Of a stretch of DNA of 64,000 nucleotides, positions 31,753-41,109 are shown piece by piece. Where the stretch lies: assembly GCF_003797835.1 (NCBI RefSeq), contig NZ_RKMF01000005.1, positions 1 through 64,000 on the forward strand. Direction: 5' to 3'. Each line of letters opens with the position of its first letter. Position 1 is the first letter of the stretch. The notes beneath the pieces were generated by a model. The model was not told where the DNA came from and made no database searches. It saw only the letters and a program-made list of their open reading frames with translations. Source of the stretch: Kocuria soli. Its GTDB lineage: Bacteria; Actinomycetota; Actinomycetes; Actinomycetales; Micrococcaceae. The position numbers and the translations under genes were made by a program.

Positions 31753-32247
31753 ATGGAGACTGCATTTCAGGCCAATCCCGTGCACACCGTCGGCGAACTG
31801 CCCAGCGTAGGGTCCTCCGCACCGTCTTTCGACCTGGTGGGTTCCGACCTCTCTCCGGTCGCCTCCCAGGACCTTGCCGGGCGTCGCCTGGTCCTCAACA
31901 TCTTCCCGAGCGTGGACACCGGTGTCTGCGCCGCATCCGTGCGCAGGTTCAACGAACTGGCAGCCGGGCTGGAGAACACAACCGTACTGTGCGTGTCCGC
32001 AGATCTGCCGTTCGCGCACGCCCGGTTCTGCGGGGCGGAGGGCATCGAGAACGTCGTGAGTGCTTCGAGCTTCCGCTCGAGCTTCGGTCAGGACTGGGGG
32101 GTTCGGATGACGGACGGGCCGCTCGAAGGGCTTCTGGCGCGTTCCGTCGTCGTCCTGGACGCCGACGGGAACGTCGTCCACACGCAGCTCGTCCCGGAAA
32201 TCACGGAAGAGCCCGACTACGACGCCGCCGTGGCCGCCCTGAAGTGA
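31753..32247 (+). CDS. tpx: Thiol peroxidase (Tpx-type peroxiredoxin)
   Basis: A 164-residue atypical 2-Cys peroxiredoxin. The peroxidatic site is F-P-S-V-D-T-G-V-C with Cys59, and the resolving Cys93 is in R-F-C-G-A-E-G. It reduces hydroperoxides with thioredoxin. The start fits a leaderless mRNA (TAGGGT 7 nt upstream). A perfect 13-bp hairpin (32291-32320) follows 43 nt after the stop. Confidence 0.95.
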
Positions 32248-34708: not shown

Positions 34709-35545
34709 TCAGGCGCCATAGGCCCTCTGCACGCCTTGACGGTCGAGGTCAGAGAAGCTCAGGCTCTGGGATCCACCGTTGCACTGGGGGTAGTGCATGA
34801 TCGACACCGAGTCGTACGGGGTCAACGGGCTCCAGTTGTTGTCCTCGAAGCAGGTTCCGGCCTCCGGACGGGTGTGCTCGTGGCGGAAGCCCAGCACGTG
34901 TCCGAGTTCGTGAGCCAGGATCGCGTCCTGCTGCCACCCGGAGGAGTAGAACTGGTCGGCGACGAGCACGTTGCGCTGGGACTTGGGGGAGTCCGGGAAG
35001 AAGGCACGGGCGATGTACCCGGTCTCGGAGGTGGGCTCGACCGAGAACACGACGTTGTTGTTGGACGTGTTGCAGTCGCCGTCCTCGGAGGACACGTACG
35101 TGAAGTCGATGCCCGACGAGGCGTCCTCCCACATGGCGGCGCCACCTTCCATGGCGTTGACGACGGTCGACTTCTGGCTTCCGAAGTCGTCCGAGACGCA
35201 ATAGGTCAGGTCCTGTGCCTCAGATGCCGACCACAGGGTCTGGTTGCCGTACACGTCCGTGTTGGCGATCAGATCACCTGTGCCTCCCGAGGATTCCTCA
35301 GCCACGGGCCCCGACGGGAGGGATTCGTAGAAGGAGAACAGAGAGGCGGTGTCGGACACCGGGATGTCACCGTCGACGATGTACTGACCGTCGGCGGAGC
35401 GGTAGGTGTCAGCCTGGAACTGTTCCCAGGTCGGCTTCTGTCCGGTGGATGCGGAGTCGTCTTCCTGTGCGACGGCCGCCGGTGCGATGCTGAACACCAT
35501 TGCTCCGGCTGCAACCGCGGCGCCAAATCGGTGGAGGGTTTTCAT
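34709..35545 (-). CDS. Secreted metzincin-type zinc metalloprotease
   Basis: A 278-residue protein with a Sec signal peptide (positive M-K-T-L-H-R, hydrophobic 8-24, cleavage near A-V-A at about 26). The zinc site is H-E-L-G-H-V-L-G-F-R-H-E-H (212-224): His212, His216 and His222 with catalytic Glu213. The Met-turn is S-I-M-H-Y (248-252). The H-E-x-x-H-x-x-G-x-x-H-E pattern with Met-turn places it among astacin/matrixin-like metzincins. Cys116 and Cys158, and Cys232 and Cys255, could form disulfides. Residues 30-110 may be a pro-region. The ATG at 35545 has AAAGGA upstream; the longer frame adds non-coding-like sequence. Target unknown. Confidence 0.85.
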   Translation of the reverse strand: MKTLHRFGAAVAAGAMVFSIAPAAVAQEDDSASTGQKPTWEQFQADTYRSADGQYIVDGDIPVSDTASLFSFYESLPSGPVAEESSGGTGDLIANTDVYGNQTLWSASEAQDLTYCVSDDFGSQKSTVVNAMEGGAAMWEDASSGIDFTYVSSEDGDCNTSNNNVVFSVEPTSETGYIARAFFPDSPKSQRNVLVADQFYSSGWQQDAILAHELGHVLGFRHEHTRPEAGTCFEDNNWSPLTPYDSVSIMHYPQCNGGSQSLSFSDLDRQGVQRAYGA

Positions 35546-35904
35546 GGGAGAGTCCTTTCGCCCGGATGAATGATTCATCCGAATATTCTTCGGCACGGCG
35601 GGCCCAATACTTCGGGAGATCCAGGGGTTCGGATTCGTCCCGGGGTGGTATCGCCATGTTGGGATAAAGGGCGTTCTGACTAGTCGAAACAGCTTCACCG
35701 TAACGGTTTGGCAACGATGAAATAAACCCGTCACAAGGGGTGACGGGTCAATGGATCCGAAATGGGGGCGGTGTTCGTGGGAAGTTTTCCGCTTAGTCCG
35801 CGGCAGGGCGCGGATCTCTCTGTTGAGTCATGAGTTGCGTAAAGATGCGAAGTAAAATGCACATGCAACAACAATGGATGCAGATGGGACAAAACGGTGG
35901 TTTT
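35546..35904. promoter_or_regulatory. Leader of the metalloprotease gene; no gene
   Basis: This 359-nt AT-richer stretch has no gene. Near the metalloprotease ATG it holds a palindrome with 7-bp arms (35564-35580, centre TGA) directly followed by the 8-bp palindrome GAATATTC (35581-35588). At 35726-35748 there is a 9-bp hairpin whose minus-strand 3' side continues into TTTATTTC, a likely terminator for the YjbR-like gene. A -35-like TTGCCA on the minus strand lies near 35710. Confidence 0.45.
35726..35748 (-). terminator. Probable terminator of the YjbR-like gene
   Basis: Arms 35726-35734 and 35740-35748, 9 bp, followed on the minus strand by a TTTATTTC tail. It is 157 nt beyond the YjbR stop. 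Confidence 0.55.
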
Positions 35905-36279: not shown

Positions 36280-36370
36280 GCCGCCAGGGTAGTGACTCGA
36301 TTCTGTGGTTCACATCCAGGACACAGCTTCCGCATGTCGTCGACATGGAAAAGCCCGCGAATCTCGAACC

Positions 36371-37720
36371 ATGACGAATCACGAGCAGAACACCAGCCCG
36401 ATCACCTTCTCCGCCACGGACCAGAACACAGGTTCCACACTCTCGAATCGTACGGGCGGGACCGCGAAGCCCACGCTTCGGAACCGGCTACGGACCGGGG
36501 CAGCCGGTTTGGTGCTTGCCGCCATGCTGGCCACCACCGCGTGCAGCACCGCGAATTCCGTGGAGGCCACTTCTGAGACCTCCTCCACCGGCTCAAGTGC
36601 CTCTTCGAGCACAGCAACCGAGACGACCACAAGCAGTGACCAGAGTGGCACCGGGAGCGCCGCCGAGGTCCAGGCCCTGGCCGAAGCGTTCGCGGACACG
36701 CTGGATGACGAGCAGCGAGCACAGCTCTACCAGGACTACAGCTTCGACAATGCGTCCAACTGGTCGAACTTCCCCCAGCAACTCCTGCAGAACGGGATGG
36801 GCGGCATGGGCGCGCCGGGGGAACAGGACGCGAGCGCCGGGTCGTCGTCGGAGTCCTCCTCCACCTCCTCGTCCAGTTCCTCAAGTGGTCGTGTGGGACT
36901 GGACCTCGGTTCGCTGAACGAGGAGCAACGCTCTGCCCTCGAGGAGCTGATGAAGGCCGCGATGGGCTCGGAGGACAACGAGGGCTATGACGAGGTCATG
37001 TCGATCCTTGCTGCCGACGACTACCTGGCCGAGCAGAACGCGTCCAGCACGGAGTACGGATCGGACAACTACTACATCGCCTTCCTGGGCGAGCCCACGG
37101 ACTCCGGCACCTGGGAGTTGCAGTTCGGTGGACACCACCTCGCGGTCTCCAACACCTACACCGACGGGGAACTGGTCAGTGCGACGCCGTCGTTCCGCGG
37201 TACCGAACCCACCGGCGAGTTCACCTACGACGGCGAAACCTACGATCCGCTGACCCAGGAGACGCACGCGTTCACGGCGTTGCTGGACTCCCTGACCGAC
37301 GAACAACGGGCGGAGGCGGAGATCGACCAGTCGAACCTCCTGCTGGGCCCGGGGTCGGACTGGCAGTTCCCGGAGGAGGCCGAGGGCATCAAGGTCTCGG
37401 AGCTCACGGATGAGCAGAAGCAGCTGGTCCTGGACGCCATTGCCACCTACGTGGACGATCTGCCGGAGGAGCAGGCGGCCGAGTACATGCAGCGGTACGA
37501 GGCGGAGTTGGACGACACCTACATCTCCTTCTCGGGCAACAGCGACTTCGCCAGCGTGGGGGACTACGTGCGGATCGACGGGCCCAGCGTGTGGATCGAG
37601 CTGGCGATGCAGAACGGGGTGGCCACCTCGACCCCGCACATCCACTCGGTGTGGCGCGATTCCGAGACCGACTACGCGGGGCTCACTGCCGAGGAGGAGA
37701 CGGACACTTCCCAGTCCTGA
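36371..37720 (+). CDS. DUF3500-domain lipoprotein
   Basis: A 449-residue secreted protein. A basic N-region (R-N-R-L-R-T) and hydrophobic core at about 43-56 end at T-T-A-C-S, a lipobox-like site with an unusual Thr at -3. The linker is Ser/Thr-rich (about 60-98). The remainder resembles DUF3500: repeated L-x-D-E-Q-x-x-A segments at about 112, 178, 312 and 345, F-L-G-E-P and W-E-L-Q-F-G-G-H-H-L. A second Ser-rich run (about 155-178) interrupts the domain. The family is found in actinobacterial envelopes and has no known activity. The 3' end lies 16 nt before the next gene. Confidence 0.78.
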   Translation: MTNHEQNTSPITFSATDQNTGSTLSNRTGGTAKPTLRNRLRTGAAGLVLAAMLATTACSTANSVEATSETSSTGSSASSSTATETTTSSDQSGTGSAAEVQALAEAFADTLDDEQRAQLYQDYSFDNASNWSNFPQQLLQNGMGGMGAPGEQDASAGSSSESSSTSSSSSSSGRVGLDLGSLNEEQRSALEELMKAAMGSEDNEGYDEVMSILAADDYLAEQNASSTEYGSDNYYIAFLGEPTDSGTWELQFGGHHLAVSNTYTDGELVSATPSFRGTEPTGEFTYDGETYDPLTQETHAFTALLDSLTDEQRAEAEIDQSNLLLGPGSDWQFPEEAEGIKVSELTDEQKQLVLDAIATYVDDLPEEQAAEYMQRYEAELDDTYISFSGNSDFASVGDYVRIDGPSVWIELAMQNGVATSTPHIHSVWRDSETDYAGLTAEEETDTSQS

Positions 37721-37736: not shown

Positions 37737-38543
37737 ATGGCATCGACCACCGGTTCTACACCCCCCGACAGCGGCATCCACATCCAGCGCGTGGGGGAGG
37801 GCGAGAAGAACCTCGTCTTCCTCCACGGCTTGATGGGGCGGGGGAAGAACTTCGCGCGCTTCGCCAAGGAACTCTCCGAGGAATGCACCGTCCTGCTGGT
37901 CGACCTTCCCAACCACGGTGCCTCGGCCTGGACGGAATCGGTCGATTATCCGAACCTGGCCGCGGCCGTTTCCAAGGCGATCAACGAAGAACTGGGCAAC
38001 CAGCCCTACTACCTCGTGGGTCACTCCATGGGGGGCAAGGTGGCCATGACCATGGCCCTCACGCAGCCCGAGCTGATCCTCAAGCTCATGGTCGTGGACA
38101 TCTCACCGGTCAAGAGCTGGAACAGCGGGGGAGAGTTCCCGCACCTGCTGGGCAGTCTCCTGTCCGTGGACCTCAACCAGGTGGCGAACCGGGCGGAGGT
38201 CGAGCAGAAACTCAAGGACCCGATCCCTCACCCCACCGTCAGGGGATTCCTGATGCAGAACCTCCGGTACTCGGGCGGTGGCTTCGGGTGGCAACCGAAC
38301 CTGGAACTGCTCTACGACAGCCTGGACACCATCGGGGGTTTTCCCGAATTCACGACGACGTACGACCGCCCGGTCATGTGGGTGGCCGGTGGTGAATCGC
38401 AGTACGTCAAGGACGAGTACCGGCCGGTCATGCAGAAGCTGTTTCCGCAGGTCCGCAAGATCACAGTCAAGGGCGCCGGGCACTGGGTGCACTCCCAGAA
38501 GCCGGAGGAGTTCACGGAGCTGTTGCGGCACTTCCTCAGCTGA
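37737..38543 (+). CDS. Alpha/beta-fold hydrolase
   Basis: A 268-residue serine hydrolase. It has the oxyanion motif V-F-L-H-G-L-M-G (27-34), nucleophile Ser97 in V-G-H-S-M-G-G, and a catalytic His in G-A-G-H-W-V-H near residue 250. It resembles YbfF-like esterases (L-H-G-L-x-G, L-x-D-x-x-N-H-G). Substrate unknown. The start fits a leaderless mRNA. Confidence 0.88.
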   Translation: MASTTGSTPPDSGIHIQRVGEGEKNLVFLHGLMGRGKNFARFAKELSEECTVLLVDLPNHGASAWTESVDYPNLAAAVSKAINEELGNQPYYLVGHSMGGKVAMTMALTQPELILKLMVVDISPVKSWNSGGEFPHLLGSLLSVDLNQVANRAEVEQKLKDPIPHPTVRGFLMQNLRYSGGGFGWQPNLELLYDSLDTIGGFPEFTTTYDRPVMWVAGGESQYVKDEYRPVMQKLFPQVRKITVKGAGHWVHSQKPEEFTELLRHFLS

Positions 38544-38574
38544 GAGCGTGTTCCGTCACCTCCGGCGCGCGGCC

Positions 38575-38580
38575 TAGGGT
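38575..38580 (+). promoter_or_regulatory. -10 box of the leaderless macrodomain transcript
   Basis: TAGGGT lies 6 nt before the ATG at 38587; no ribosome site. Confidence 0.55.
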
Positions 38581-38586
38581 GACGTC

Positions 38587-39111
38587 ATGGACATGCGGAT
38601 ACAGCTCGGTGACATCACGACCGTGGCCGTCGACGCCGTCGTCAACGCTGCCAACTCCACCCTCATGGGTGGAGGAGGAGTGGACGGAGCCATCCATCGG
38701 GCTGGTGGTGACACGATCCTGGCCGAGTGCAAGCAGTTGAGGGCGGAGGCCTGGCCCCATGGACTGCCGACCGGCCGTGCGGTGGCCACCACGGCGGGGG
38801 ATCTGTCTGCGCGCTGGGTCATTCACACCGTGGGGCCTGTGTACTCAACCACGGATGACCGTTCCGAACTCTTGGCGTCCTGCTATCGGGAATCGTTGCG
38901 TGTGGCCGCCGAGCTCGGCGCGCAAACCGTTGCTTTCCCGACCATCTCGGCCGGAATCTACGGGTGGCCCCTGGAAGACGCCACGCGGATCGCCGTCGAC
39001 ACCGTGCAGGACATGACCGACGAGGTGGGGGAGCAGGTCCGTGAAGTCCTGTTCGTGGCGTTCAGCGAAGCGGCAGAGGATGCGTATCGGCGACATCTGG
39101 CGGGGTGCTGA
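38587..39111 (+). CDS. Macrodomain protein (O-acetyl-ADP-ribose deacetylase-like)
   Basis: A 174-residue single macrodomain. The ADP-ribose loop N-A-A-N-S-T-L-M-G-G-G-G-V-D-G-A-I-H (21-38) with Asn and Asp is that of MacroD/YmdB-type hydrolases. The second loop F-P-T-I-S-A-G-I-Y-G-W-P (about 119-130) is also present. Such enzymes remove ADP-ribose from proteins or deacetylate O-acetyl-ADP-ribose. No sirtuin or ADP-ribosyltransferase is nearby. Leaderless-type start. Confidence 0.93.
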   Translation: MDMRIQLGDITTVAVDAVVNAANSTLMGGGGVDGAIHRAGGDTILAECKQLRAEAWPHGLPTGRAVATTAGDLSARWVIHTVGPVYSTTDDRSELLASCYRESLRVAAELGAQTVAFPTISAGIYGWPLEDATRIAVDTVQDMTDEVGEQVREVLFVAFSEAAEDAYRRHLAGC

Positions 39112-39142
39112 CGGCACCATCCCGCAACGGTGTCCTCTTGCC

Positions 39143-39169
39143 TGTCACATCTGGGCTTTGGCCTGCGTC
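39143..39169 (+). promoter_or_regulatory. ECF41-type promoter
   Basis: TGTCACA (39143-39149), a 16-nt spacer, then CGTC (39166-39169). This agrees with the published target promoter of ECF41 sigma factors (-35 TGTCACA, -10 CGTC). It lies 46 nt before the first gene of the CMD-ECF41 pair, so the sigma factor probably drives its own operon. Confidence 0.8.
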
Positions 39170-39214
39170 AAGTGGATGACGGTGCACGGAGCGCCGCTGG
39201 AAGGAGCTCGGAAG

Positions 39215-39643
39215 ATGCCTCGACTGAACATGCGGAAGACCCACAAACTCGGTATGGCTGCAGTGCTTGGGCTGGAGGGATACACCCGAACACGCCTGCC
39301 GAGTGAACTCAATGAACTGATCAAGTTGCGGACGTCATTGCTTAACGGTTGTCAGTTCTGTATCGCCATGCACTCCGAGGATCTGAGGCGGGCAGGGGAG
39401 ACGCAGGAGCGCCTGGCGGCATTGGAGCAGGATGATCCCGGGGAGCTGTTCGACCCCCGTGAGCGCGCTGCACTGGCACTGACCGATGCGGTGACTCGCC
39501 TGGGTGAAGGCGGCGTGTCAGATGACGTCTGGGATAGAGCGGGGGAGTTCTTCTCCTCGACGCAGCTTGGGGACCTGGTGCTGGCGATTGCGACGATCAA
39601 CGTGTGGAACCGGATCGGGATTGCAACCAGGCTTGAAGCATGA
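39215..39643 (+). CDS. Carboxymuconolactone decarboxylase-family protein (AhpD-like), ECF41 partner
   Basis: A 142-residue alpha-helical CMD/AhpD-like protein. The active-site pattern N-G-C-Q-F-C-I-A-M-H has Cys46, Cys49 and His53, the redox CxxC of peroxidase-type members, and L-P-S-E-L-N-E-L-I-K-L-R-T-S precedes it. ECF41 sigma factors are commonly next to such CMD (or oxidoreductase or epimerase) genes. The ATG at 39215 has AAGGAG 8 nt upstream; its stop overlaps the sigma gene by ATGA. Confidence 0.9.
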   Translation: MPRLNMRKTHKLGMAAVLGLEGYTRTRLPSELNELIKLRTSLLNGCQFCIAMHSEDLRRAGETQERLAALEQDDPGELFDPRERAALALTDAVTRLGEGGVSDDVWDRAGEFFSSTQLGDLVLAIATINVWNRIGIATRLEA

Positions 39644-40485
39644 GCTCCCGTTCGAGGATGTCAGAGGACGTGTGGTTGGCAGAGCGCCCGCGCCTGCTGT
39701 CCCTGGCGTACCGAATCCTGGGGAGCTGGCACGACGCCGAGGATGTCGTCTCACAGGTGTGGTTGCGAAGTGCTGACCGCACAGACGTGGCCAATGCGCC
39801 AGCTTGGCTGACCACGGTCACCACCCGTCTTGCCATCGACCAGGGGCGTCGGCTCAAAGCACTCCGGGAGGAGTACATCGGGCCGTGGCTTCCTGAGCCC
39901 GTCGCTACCGAACTCCTGCCGGAGGAGTCGGCCGTTCAGCGCGAGAGCCTTCACCTTGGTTTGTTGCGCCTGATGGAGGAGCTTTCGCCCGAGGACCGTG
40001 CCGTCGTTGTACTGAGGGAGGCTTTCGATGTGCCTTACGCAGAAATTGCCGACTGTGTGGGGAAGTCGCTTCAGGCCTGCCGACAGGTTGTCTCTCGAGC
40101 AAAACAGCGGCTCCCGCGTGTGACTCATGCTCCTGAACGCGATGAACGACTCATGGCCGCACTCGTCACTGCACTCGCGGCGGGAGACATGGCGGCAGCG
40201 GTGGAGCTTCTGAGTGAAGGGTGCGTGCTGTGGACCGATTCCGGCGGAGCCACCAAGGCTGCGCGTCGCCCGGTGATCGGCGCGGACAAAGTGGCGCGCT
40301 TCCTGATCGGCGTCTCCGCCGCAGTACCAGGGAGCTCGGCCGATCCCGTAAATGTCAACGGAGCTCCGGCCTTCCGCCTGAAGTGGCCGGGTGGTACGCG
40401 CATCGTGGTGCTCGAACATGACGGGGAGAATATTTCGGGCATGCAGATCCATTCGAACCCGCACAAACTGGAATTCGCCCTGTAG
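39640..40485 (+). CDS. ECF41-family RNA polymerase sigma factor
   Basis: A 281-residue ECF sigma factor. Region 2 is at about 12-75 (L-L-S-L-A-Y-R-I-L-G-S-x-x-D-A-E-D). The linker has the ECF41 hallmark W-L-P-E-P (83-87). Region 4 is at about 105-160 (L-S-P-E-D-R-A-V-V-V-L-R-E-A-F). A SnoaL-like C-terminal domain of about 115 residues ends in N-P-H-K-L, close to the N-P-D-K-L motif of the family. In ECF41 proteins this domain acts in place of an anti-sigma factor, moderating activity in cis. No separate anti-sigma gene is present, as expected. Coupled to the CMD gene by ATGA. Confidence 0.93.
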   Translation: MSSRSRMSEDVWLAERPRLLSLAYRILGSWHDAEDVVSQVWLRSADRTDVANAPAWLTTVTTRLAIDQGRRLKALREEYIGPWLPEPVATELLPEESAVQRESLHLGLLRLMEELSPEDRAVVVLREAFDVPYAEIADCVGKSLQACRQVVSRAKQRLPRVTHAPERDERLMAALVTALAAGDMAAAVELLSEGCVLWTDSGGATKAARRPVIGADKVARFLIGVSAAVPGSSADPVNVNGAPAFRLKWPGGTRIVVLEHDGENISGMQIHSNPHKLEFAL

Positions 40486-40534
40486 CCGACGGGGACGAGT
40501 CGGGGGCGACGATCAACCCTGATGCGCAGCCACC

Positions 40535-41029
40535 TCAAGGCCGAAGCTGACGTCGCACCGCGTCGGTGGTCCACATCCAGAAGGCGTGGCCGAAGAACTC
40601 CGAGAGGTGTTCGCTCATCGGACGCTTCCACGGGGCGGGGACGGTATGCGTCAATGACATCAAGACGACGTGGGTCGCACCCCACACAAAGATCCCGTAG
40701 CCCGTTCCGCGGCCGAAGGTGATCTTGGGCCAGCGTTGGGCCACCAGGTCGTACGTGACGGCAGTGCCCACGGAGAACGCAAAATGAGCGCCCAGACTAA
40801 CCACCGGAACGTCGTGACCGGCCACCGTGACAGCGTGGTGAGTGAACTCGGGGGAGAAGCCGACCTGTTCCAACAAGGTCTGCGGCGGATCGGTGGCTTC
40901 CCGCTCCGGCGTGCGCGGCGGGAAGGGGACCTCCCAGCCCAACCTCGCGAAGCCACCGGCCACCCCGGATGCAGCCCCGACGAATACGGTTGTGGCCCAG
41001 GAACGAGAGCGACGGGGACTTCGATGCAT
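40535..41029 (-). CDS. YagU-like (DUF1440) inner-membrane protein
   Basis: A 164-residue protein with about three hydrophobic segments (about 10-28, 85-105, 112-132). It has the YagU signature W-E-V-P-F-P-P-R after the first segment. E. coli YagU is linked to acid resistance; no mechanism is known. The ATG at 41029 has AGGAGAAG directly upstream; the longer upstream frame is rejected. Convergent with the ECF41 gene (49 nt). Confidence 0.85.
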   Translation of the reverse strand: MHRSPRRSRSWATTVFVGAASGVAGGFARLGWEVPFPPRTPEREATDPPQTLLEQVGFSPEFTHHAVTVAGHDVPVVSLGAHFAFSVGTAVTYDLVAQRWPKITFGRGTGYGIFVWGATHVVLMSLTHTVPAPWKRPMSEHLSEFFGHAFWMWTTDAVRRQLRP

Positions 41030-41109
41030 GGGCTTCTCCTGGTCCGTTGCGTTGTCGACACGGGTATTCGTCGTCGTTGGCTGCTTGGAACCTTCGGCAG
41101 ATGGGGTTG

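Follow-up and report, generated by a model that had tools for sequence, protein, structure and literature searches.

What does a sigma factor gene do when it follows a carboxymuconolactone decarboxylase-like (CMD) gene and a promoter-like element and has no anti-sigma gene beside it? ECF41 sigma factors pose this question as a group. According to Wecke et al. (2012, PMC3426412), they number about 400 proteins, have no obvious anti-sigma gene, and neighbour genes for CMD proteins, oxidoreductases or epimerases; their hallmarks are the promoter TGTCACA-N16-CGTC (spacer 16 ± 1), a C-terminal extension and a linker that contains WLPEP. We analysed one such locus within a stretch of 64,000 nucleotides (the window). 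The best explanation is a two-gene autoregulatory ECF41 operon with a regulatory tail, to which we assign a probability of about 0.9. What is established here is which parts the locus has and in what order, the family and predicted fold of the sigma factor, and that the promoter-like site is conserved. The locus is complete yet an ordinary ECF41 module of a well-described type, and the novelty is limited to this individual copy, as the first-pass annotation had held and as both the literature and our comparisons agree.

Layout of the locus and genomic setting

The window (G+C 66.6%) is part of a 204,583-base contig in a genome of 2.95 Mb and 31 contigs. On the plus strand, which carries all features of the module, TGTCACA-N16-CGTC at 39143-39169 (TGTCACATCTGGGCTTTGGCCTGCGTC) is followed by an AhpD-like CMD gene at 39215-39643 and an ECF41/SigJ-type sigma factor gene at 39640-40485; this arrangement across 39143-40485, ATGA overlap included, had been proposed earlier and was confirmed in the sequence. 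The -35 element TGTCACA occupies 39143-39149 and is identified by its sequence, the consensus in PMC3426412 and its conservation in CMD-first loci. The -10 element CGTC lies at 39166-39169, as judged from sequence and locus comparison, and transcription would be expected to start a few bases 3' of it. A gap of 45 bp separates the promoter-like element from the CMD ATG at 39215, and GAAGGAG at 39200-39206 is, by eye, the likely ribosome-binding site of that gene. The CMD gene encodes 142 amino acids and stops at 39641-39643, sharing the ATGA at 39640-39643 with the start of the sigma gene, which encodes 281 amino acids.

A Pfam scan showed an alpha/beta hydrolase gene and then a macro-domain gene on the 5' side, both on the plus strand, and a convergent DUF1440 gene, to which no function is assigned, on the opposite strand 3' of the sigma gene. 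Among the neighbour genes scanned, Pfam found no anti-sigma domain, in keeping with the first-pass annotation. Inverted repeats 3' of the sigma gene are short. Elsewhere in the window, 31753-32247 is a redoxin-family gene. The protein encoded at 36305-37720 belongs to DUF3500; by eye, its start resembles that of a lipoprotein and a long part of it is rich in Ser. A putative secreted metalloprotease (34709-35734, minus strand; by eye) contains HELGHVLGFRHEH, which we take to be a zinc-protease motif.

The sigma factor is of the ECF41 type

The sigma factor scores above the cut-off for both sigma2 (PF04542, 43.4 bits) and sigma4 (PF08281, 44.3 bits). An alignment of relatives places YIGPWLPEP, the sigma2-sigma4 linker motif, at residues 79-87 (39874-39900). 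In the C-terminal tail (residues about 163-281; 40126-40482), it places DSGGA, a divergent form of DGGG[K/R], at residues 200-204 (40237-40251), and NPHKL, a variant of NPDKL, at residues 273-277 (40456-40470), with the protein ending four residues on. W-L-P-E-P and N-P-H-K-L, both named earlier, are thereby located. The tail scored 21.1 bits against Pfam SnoaL_2, below the cut-off of 27, so its assignment as SnoaL/NTF2-like rests on the predicted fold. The AlphaFold2 model (pLDDT 86.6, pTM 0.83, from 35 aligned sequences) predicts a tail folded as in SigJ and NTF2-like proteins.

By sequence, the nearest solved relative is Mycobacterium tuberculosis SigJ (E 7.6e-40), with SigG1 far behind (2.9e-8). 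SigJ is also the best Foldseek match of the model (5xe7_A, E 2.4e-18, TM 0.79/0.80, over the whole length), slightly above SigG1. VIA-align ties the two (SigG1, Z 25.6, rmsd 2.9 over 269; SigJ, Z 24.8, rmsd 2.8 over 259), so the fold cannot separate ECF41 from ECF56, but the motifs can. This bears on the reading that our protein is an ECF56 or SigG1-like factor, with a SnoaL tail and a separate anti-sigma protein encoded elsewhere. SigG1 is an ECF56 member described as having a SnoaL_2 tail and the anti-sigma factor RsfG, and it is reported to lack NPDKL (PMC7730460), whereas the linker motif and NPxKL are both present here. Despite the equal structural closeness, we consider an ECF56 assignment very unlikely: the sequence search clearly favours SigJ, Foldseek does so slightly, and where ECF56 would have a cotranscribed anti-sigma gene the next gene is the convergent DUF1440 gene.

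The sigma factor scored below the cut-offs of two NCBIfam models, SigX4 (TIGR02957, 258.0 against 323.25) and SigJ (NF007214, 247.1 against 271), which are naming thresholds of those models and no defining feature of ECF41. Of nine relatives run against the same two models, five failed both (G022, locus L135, from a genome of the same genus, and L009, L012, L013 and L026), two passed both (L024, L038), and two passed the SigJ model only (L011, L080). SigJ itself shares the full-length fold with a SnoaL_2 tail (PDB 5xe7) and differs in sequence, with about 33% identity; its own tail reads DSNGK, off DGGGR.

We counted motif residues in those named relatives whose sigma frame reached 200 amino acids or more; 76 remained once L083 and L085 (cut short or with a broken frame) and L087 and L088 (not ECF41) had been dropped from a set of 80 loci. 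Linker residues Y79, G81 and W83 and tail residues D200, N273, P274 and K276 are invariant in 76/76. Position 275, His in our protein, is Asp in 51 of the 76, Glu in 10 and His in one; position 204, Ala here, is Lys or Arg in 56. Of the core residues of the two tail motifs, NPHKL retains the N, P and K of NPDKL, and DSGGA retains the D and two G of DGGG[K/R]; the remaining positions deviate. With His at position 275 and Ala in place of the K/R of DGGG[K/R], this protein might differ in its control by the tail. The genome holds no second sigma homologue at E ≤ 0.01, the sole match being the protein itself.

The CMD protein keeps four of the five proton-relay residues

The CMD protein matches PF02627 (54.5 bits, cut-off 23) and the AhpD core model TIGR00778 (55.7 bits, cut-off 27.8), and structures of the AhpD-like protein PA0269 (2ijc, 2o4d; PMC3141380) are among its nearest solved relatives (E 1.9e-29). 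It is the sole CMD homologue in the genome at E ≤ 1e-10. The CxxC-x3-His site claimed by the first-pass annotation is present as Cys46-Gln-Phe-Cys49 (39350-39361) and His53 (39371-39373), with Glu34 before it. Glu34, Cys46, Cys49 and His53 are kept at relay spacing, and Phe48 occupies the Tyr/His position. The relay is given as Glu36, Cys48, Tyr50, Cys51 and His55 in PA0269 and as Glu118, Cys130, His132, Cys133 and His137 in M. tuberculosis AhpD, and conservation of the Tyr/His position is described as not absolute (PMC3141380). Our protein thus resembles PA0269 in the relay Glu, both Cys and the His, and differs in having Phe48 for Tyr50.

The same annotation had taken this site as a hint of peroxide or carbonyl stress. 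The site stands, but the hint is weak because of Phe48 in the relay and because oxidant phenotypes in other species are weak or absent. PA0269 showed weak peroxidase activity (PMC3141380). In PMC3426412, four oxidants are reported to have made no difference to ECF41 and CMD mutants of two species, and an M. tuberculosis sigJ mutant is cited as having slightly raised sensitivity to H2O2. A peroxide role of the CMD protein, suggested by its sequence, is possible and weakly supported. The AhpC-type 1-cysPrx_C domain (PF10417) was not found in the genome by a search that was positive in 8/14 named genomes as a control, which leaves room for other peroxiredoxins in the genome.

The promoter-like site is conserved in position, not enriched in number

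The element matches the ECF41 consensus given in PMC3426412, as the first-pass annotation had stated, and the match is conserved in related loci. By number, the motif is at the level of chance. TGTCACA-N14-18-CGTC occurs once in the window, compared with a mean of 0.26 in shuffled windows (at least one in 23/100), and the same exact motif occurs twice in the 2.95 Mb genome, versus three times for the reversed control, so the motif count by itself proves nothing. By arithmetic, the genomic rate corresponds to about 1e-4 sites in any one 250-bp segment of one strand.

A genome search for more TGTCACA-N16-CGTC sites, proposed earlier as a check, yielded one extra exact site, with a spacer of 17 and no conservation (G000:C11:177723-177750, equal to L001:1501-1528 on the minus strand; G000 is the genome of the window). 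It is oriented toward an acyl-CoA ligase gene, 53 bp 5' of its GTG and 59 bp 5' of its ATG, with a divergent response-regulator-like gene on the other side; both genes were named by eye. The orientation, the distance and the published spacer range (PMC3426412) would suit a wider regulon in which the sigma factor also drives the ligase gene. However, no site of this type was found in about 220 bp 5' of the ligase orthologue in any of the 22 congeners examined (26 congeners have it; G001, G007, G012 and G024 were left out), the ECF41 carriers G022 and G004 included, and we rejected the site as a further regulon member for this lack of conservation. Motif counts in the genome are near control as well: when one mismatch was allowed at N16, 32 sites were found versus 23 for the reversed control, an excess so small that it points at no gene. 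Exact sites at N15-17 number 4, 1, 1, 2 and 1 in G022, G004, G020, G019 and G010, with 2, 3, 6, 3 and 2 for the reversed controls; the module itself accounts for one of those in G022 and for the sole one in G004. In PMC3426412, the partner gene or operon is described as the only detectable ECF41 target, three in silico candidates in Bacillus licheniformis having tested negative. Taken with these points, control of the ligase gene by this sigma factor is highly improbable.

Unlike the motif count, the position and conservation of the site argue for more than chance. In the 80 named loci, which were gathered by sigma-protein similarity, TGTCAC[A/G]-N-[C/T]GTC appears on the coding strand 52 times at spacing 16 and at most 6 times at every other spacing from 5 to 29. 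The relaxed site at N15-17 is present in 53/80 loci and absent from 27/80, some of which are cut short or not ECF41; its reversed pattern occurs in none of the 80, and the strict TGTCACA-N16-CGTC occurs in 26. Since the relaxed pattern was defined after the hits had been inspected and several loci are closely related, these counts are a description rather than a test of independent events. Among 16 CMD-first loci, 15 carry TGTCAC and [C/T]G[T/A]C in the 130 bp 5' of the CMD gene, at the published spacing give or take one base; the exception, L054, has no such site in front of its CMD gene, and L014 and L016 have CGAC as their -10 element. The CMD and sigma genes overlap by a 4-base ATGA or GTGA in nine of the 16, with G022 and Corynebacterium L009, L010, L013, L015 and L018 among the loci with such an overlap. 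L005, L026 and L081 also have a CMD gene and the site, and stand outside the 16. The least likely of the alternatives is that the match arose by chance and that transcription of the operon begins at some other promoter, with read-through out of the macro-domain gene as one example. In its favour, the motif counts are at chance, the upstream hydrolase and macro genes share the strand, and a search of the plus strand of 38400-41100 found nothing resembling a terminator. Against it stand the like sites of the CMD-first loci and of G022 and G004 in the genus, and the search of 38400-41100 likewise found no sigma-70-like promoter.

In L013:2481-2525 (Corynebacterium glyciniphilum), two overlapping ECF41-type sites lie 18 bases apart 5' of the CMD gene. 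GGTGTC replaces CGTC in the -10 region of L028, L029, L032, L037-L039, L042, L043, L045, L049, L050, L058-L061, L063, L069 and L078; these loci are mostly from mycobacteria and Microbacterium or Brachybacterium, and their spacing is unchanged except for N17 in L078.

A model for control of the operon

From its relatives, we infer that the promoter of the two-gene ECF41 operon is active, that the operon is autoregulated and that the sigma factor is regulated in cis. In the model, the sigma factor would recognise TGTCACA-N16-CGTC and drive a single transcript for the CMD protein and for itself, with sigma translation probably coupled to CMD translation. Partner-gene-first loci are the commonest partner-linked class in PMC3426412 (107 loci, 97 with the promoter), and the promoter is suggested there to transcribe both genes; this layout and our locus comparisons support the earlier view that autoregulation is likely.

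No separate anti-sigma factor would be employed. Instead, the fused SnoaL/NTF2-like tail may fold onto the sigma2-sigma4 linker, with NPHKL against YIGPWLPEP, and so set activity. Some signal could shift the sigma factor to its active form, and a small molecule bound by the NTF2-like pocket may be that signal. By analogy, NPDKL is reported to contact the linker motif YVGPWLPEP (PMC7730460), and a review describes the ECF41 tail as inhibitory through contact to the linker motif (PMC8999054). For SigJ, PMC7730460 also reports an opposing proposal, in which the compact form may be the one that recognises the promoter. Partial truncation raised activity about 20-fold in Ecf41Bli (residues 1-204) and about 120-fold in Ecf41Rsp (1-206), whereas removal of the whole extension abolished the activity of the B. 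licheniformis and Rhodobacter sphaeroides ECF41 proteins (PMC3426412). Regulation in cis by the tail, as the first-pass annotation expected, thus fits the predicted SigJ-like fold and the published truncations. Its choice of a sigma factor without the whole C-terminal domain as an informative test form does not hold: complete removal of the tail abolishes activity in the published systems, so a null result with a tail-less sigma factor would not refute autoregulation.

The closest described systems are Ecf41Bli-YdfG of B. licheniformis and Ecf41Rsp-RSP_0606 of R. sphaeroides, which share with ours the promoter consensus, a CxxC CMD gene and an adjacent WLPEP sigma gene, as well as a tail of about 100 amino acids and no anti-sigma gene as described in PMC3426412. 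They differ from the system in the window in that its tail reads DSGGA and NPHKL and in that it is known from sequence alone. The instance adds a clean single-copy ECF41 module from an actinobacterium-like genome and leaves the picture of the group unchanged. Among the matches listed from open-licence papers, we found none that deals with this instance or with corynebacterial ECF41.

The module is patchy in the genus

Sigma matches at E ≤ 1e-20 occur in 5/27 genomes of the genus, the window's own genome included. The CMD gene, the site and ECF41 occur together in three of the 27, G000, G022 (59%) and G004 (47%), a patchy distribution; the matches in G023 and G018 and a second match in G022 (34-37%) come from loci that lack the site. 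In G022 the module sits at the same place, behind the hydrolase and macro genes; G020 has that place without the module. G004 carries a more distant module at another place, and it groups with Millisia in the tree. The macro gene is found in 18 genomes and is adjacent to the hydrolase gene in G000, G022, G020, G004, G010 and G011; within the stretches examined, the module follows the macro gene in G000 and G022 alone. A mobile origin of the module was considered and not adopted. A plasmid collection contained 450 records with relatives, all below 60% identity.

Variation of the tail-linker contact in Corynebacterium

The comparison set offers natural variation in the published tail-linker contact. 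In all six Corynebacterium ECF41 proteins found (L009, L010, L013, L015, L018 and L026), the linker ends in WLPE/D-I, -V or -T, and D275 and L277 are lost too; among the other 70 relatives, L277 is kept in 68 and Asp or Glu stands at position 275 in 61. The six form one clade (100/99) in a tree that additionally left out L006, L007, L008, L074 and L076, so the joint loss of the linker Pro, D275 and L277 may be one event. This joint loss fits the published contact between tail and linker.

The window protein and G022 join the Corynebacterium clade (96/92); support for a pair made up of just these two is uncertain (94/55). The corynebacterial loci resemble ours in being CMD-first, with the ATGA overlap and the site. 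Their proteins differ in having lost the last linker Pro and in reading NPxK[V/I] or NPSKG, whereas the window protein retains YIGPWLPEP. One proposal, which we hold to be improbable, is that a corynebacterial-type ECF41 subclade including the window protein has a remodelled tail-linker latch, in a milder form here (NPHKL and DSGGA with an intact linker). If it were true, these naturally occurring proteins could show some constitutive activity or respond to a different ligand, and the autoinhibition model could be tested without designed mutants. As a separate observation, five of the six Corynebacterium proteins end at most three residues past their counterpart of NPDKL.
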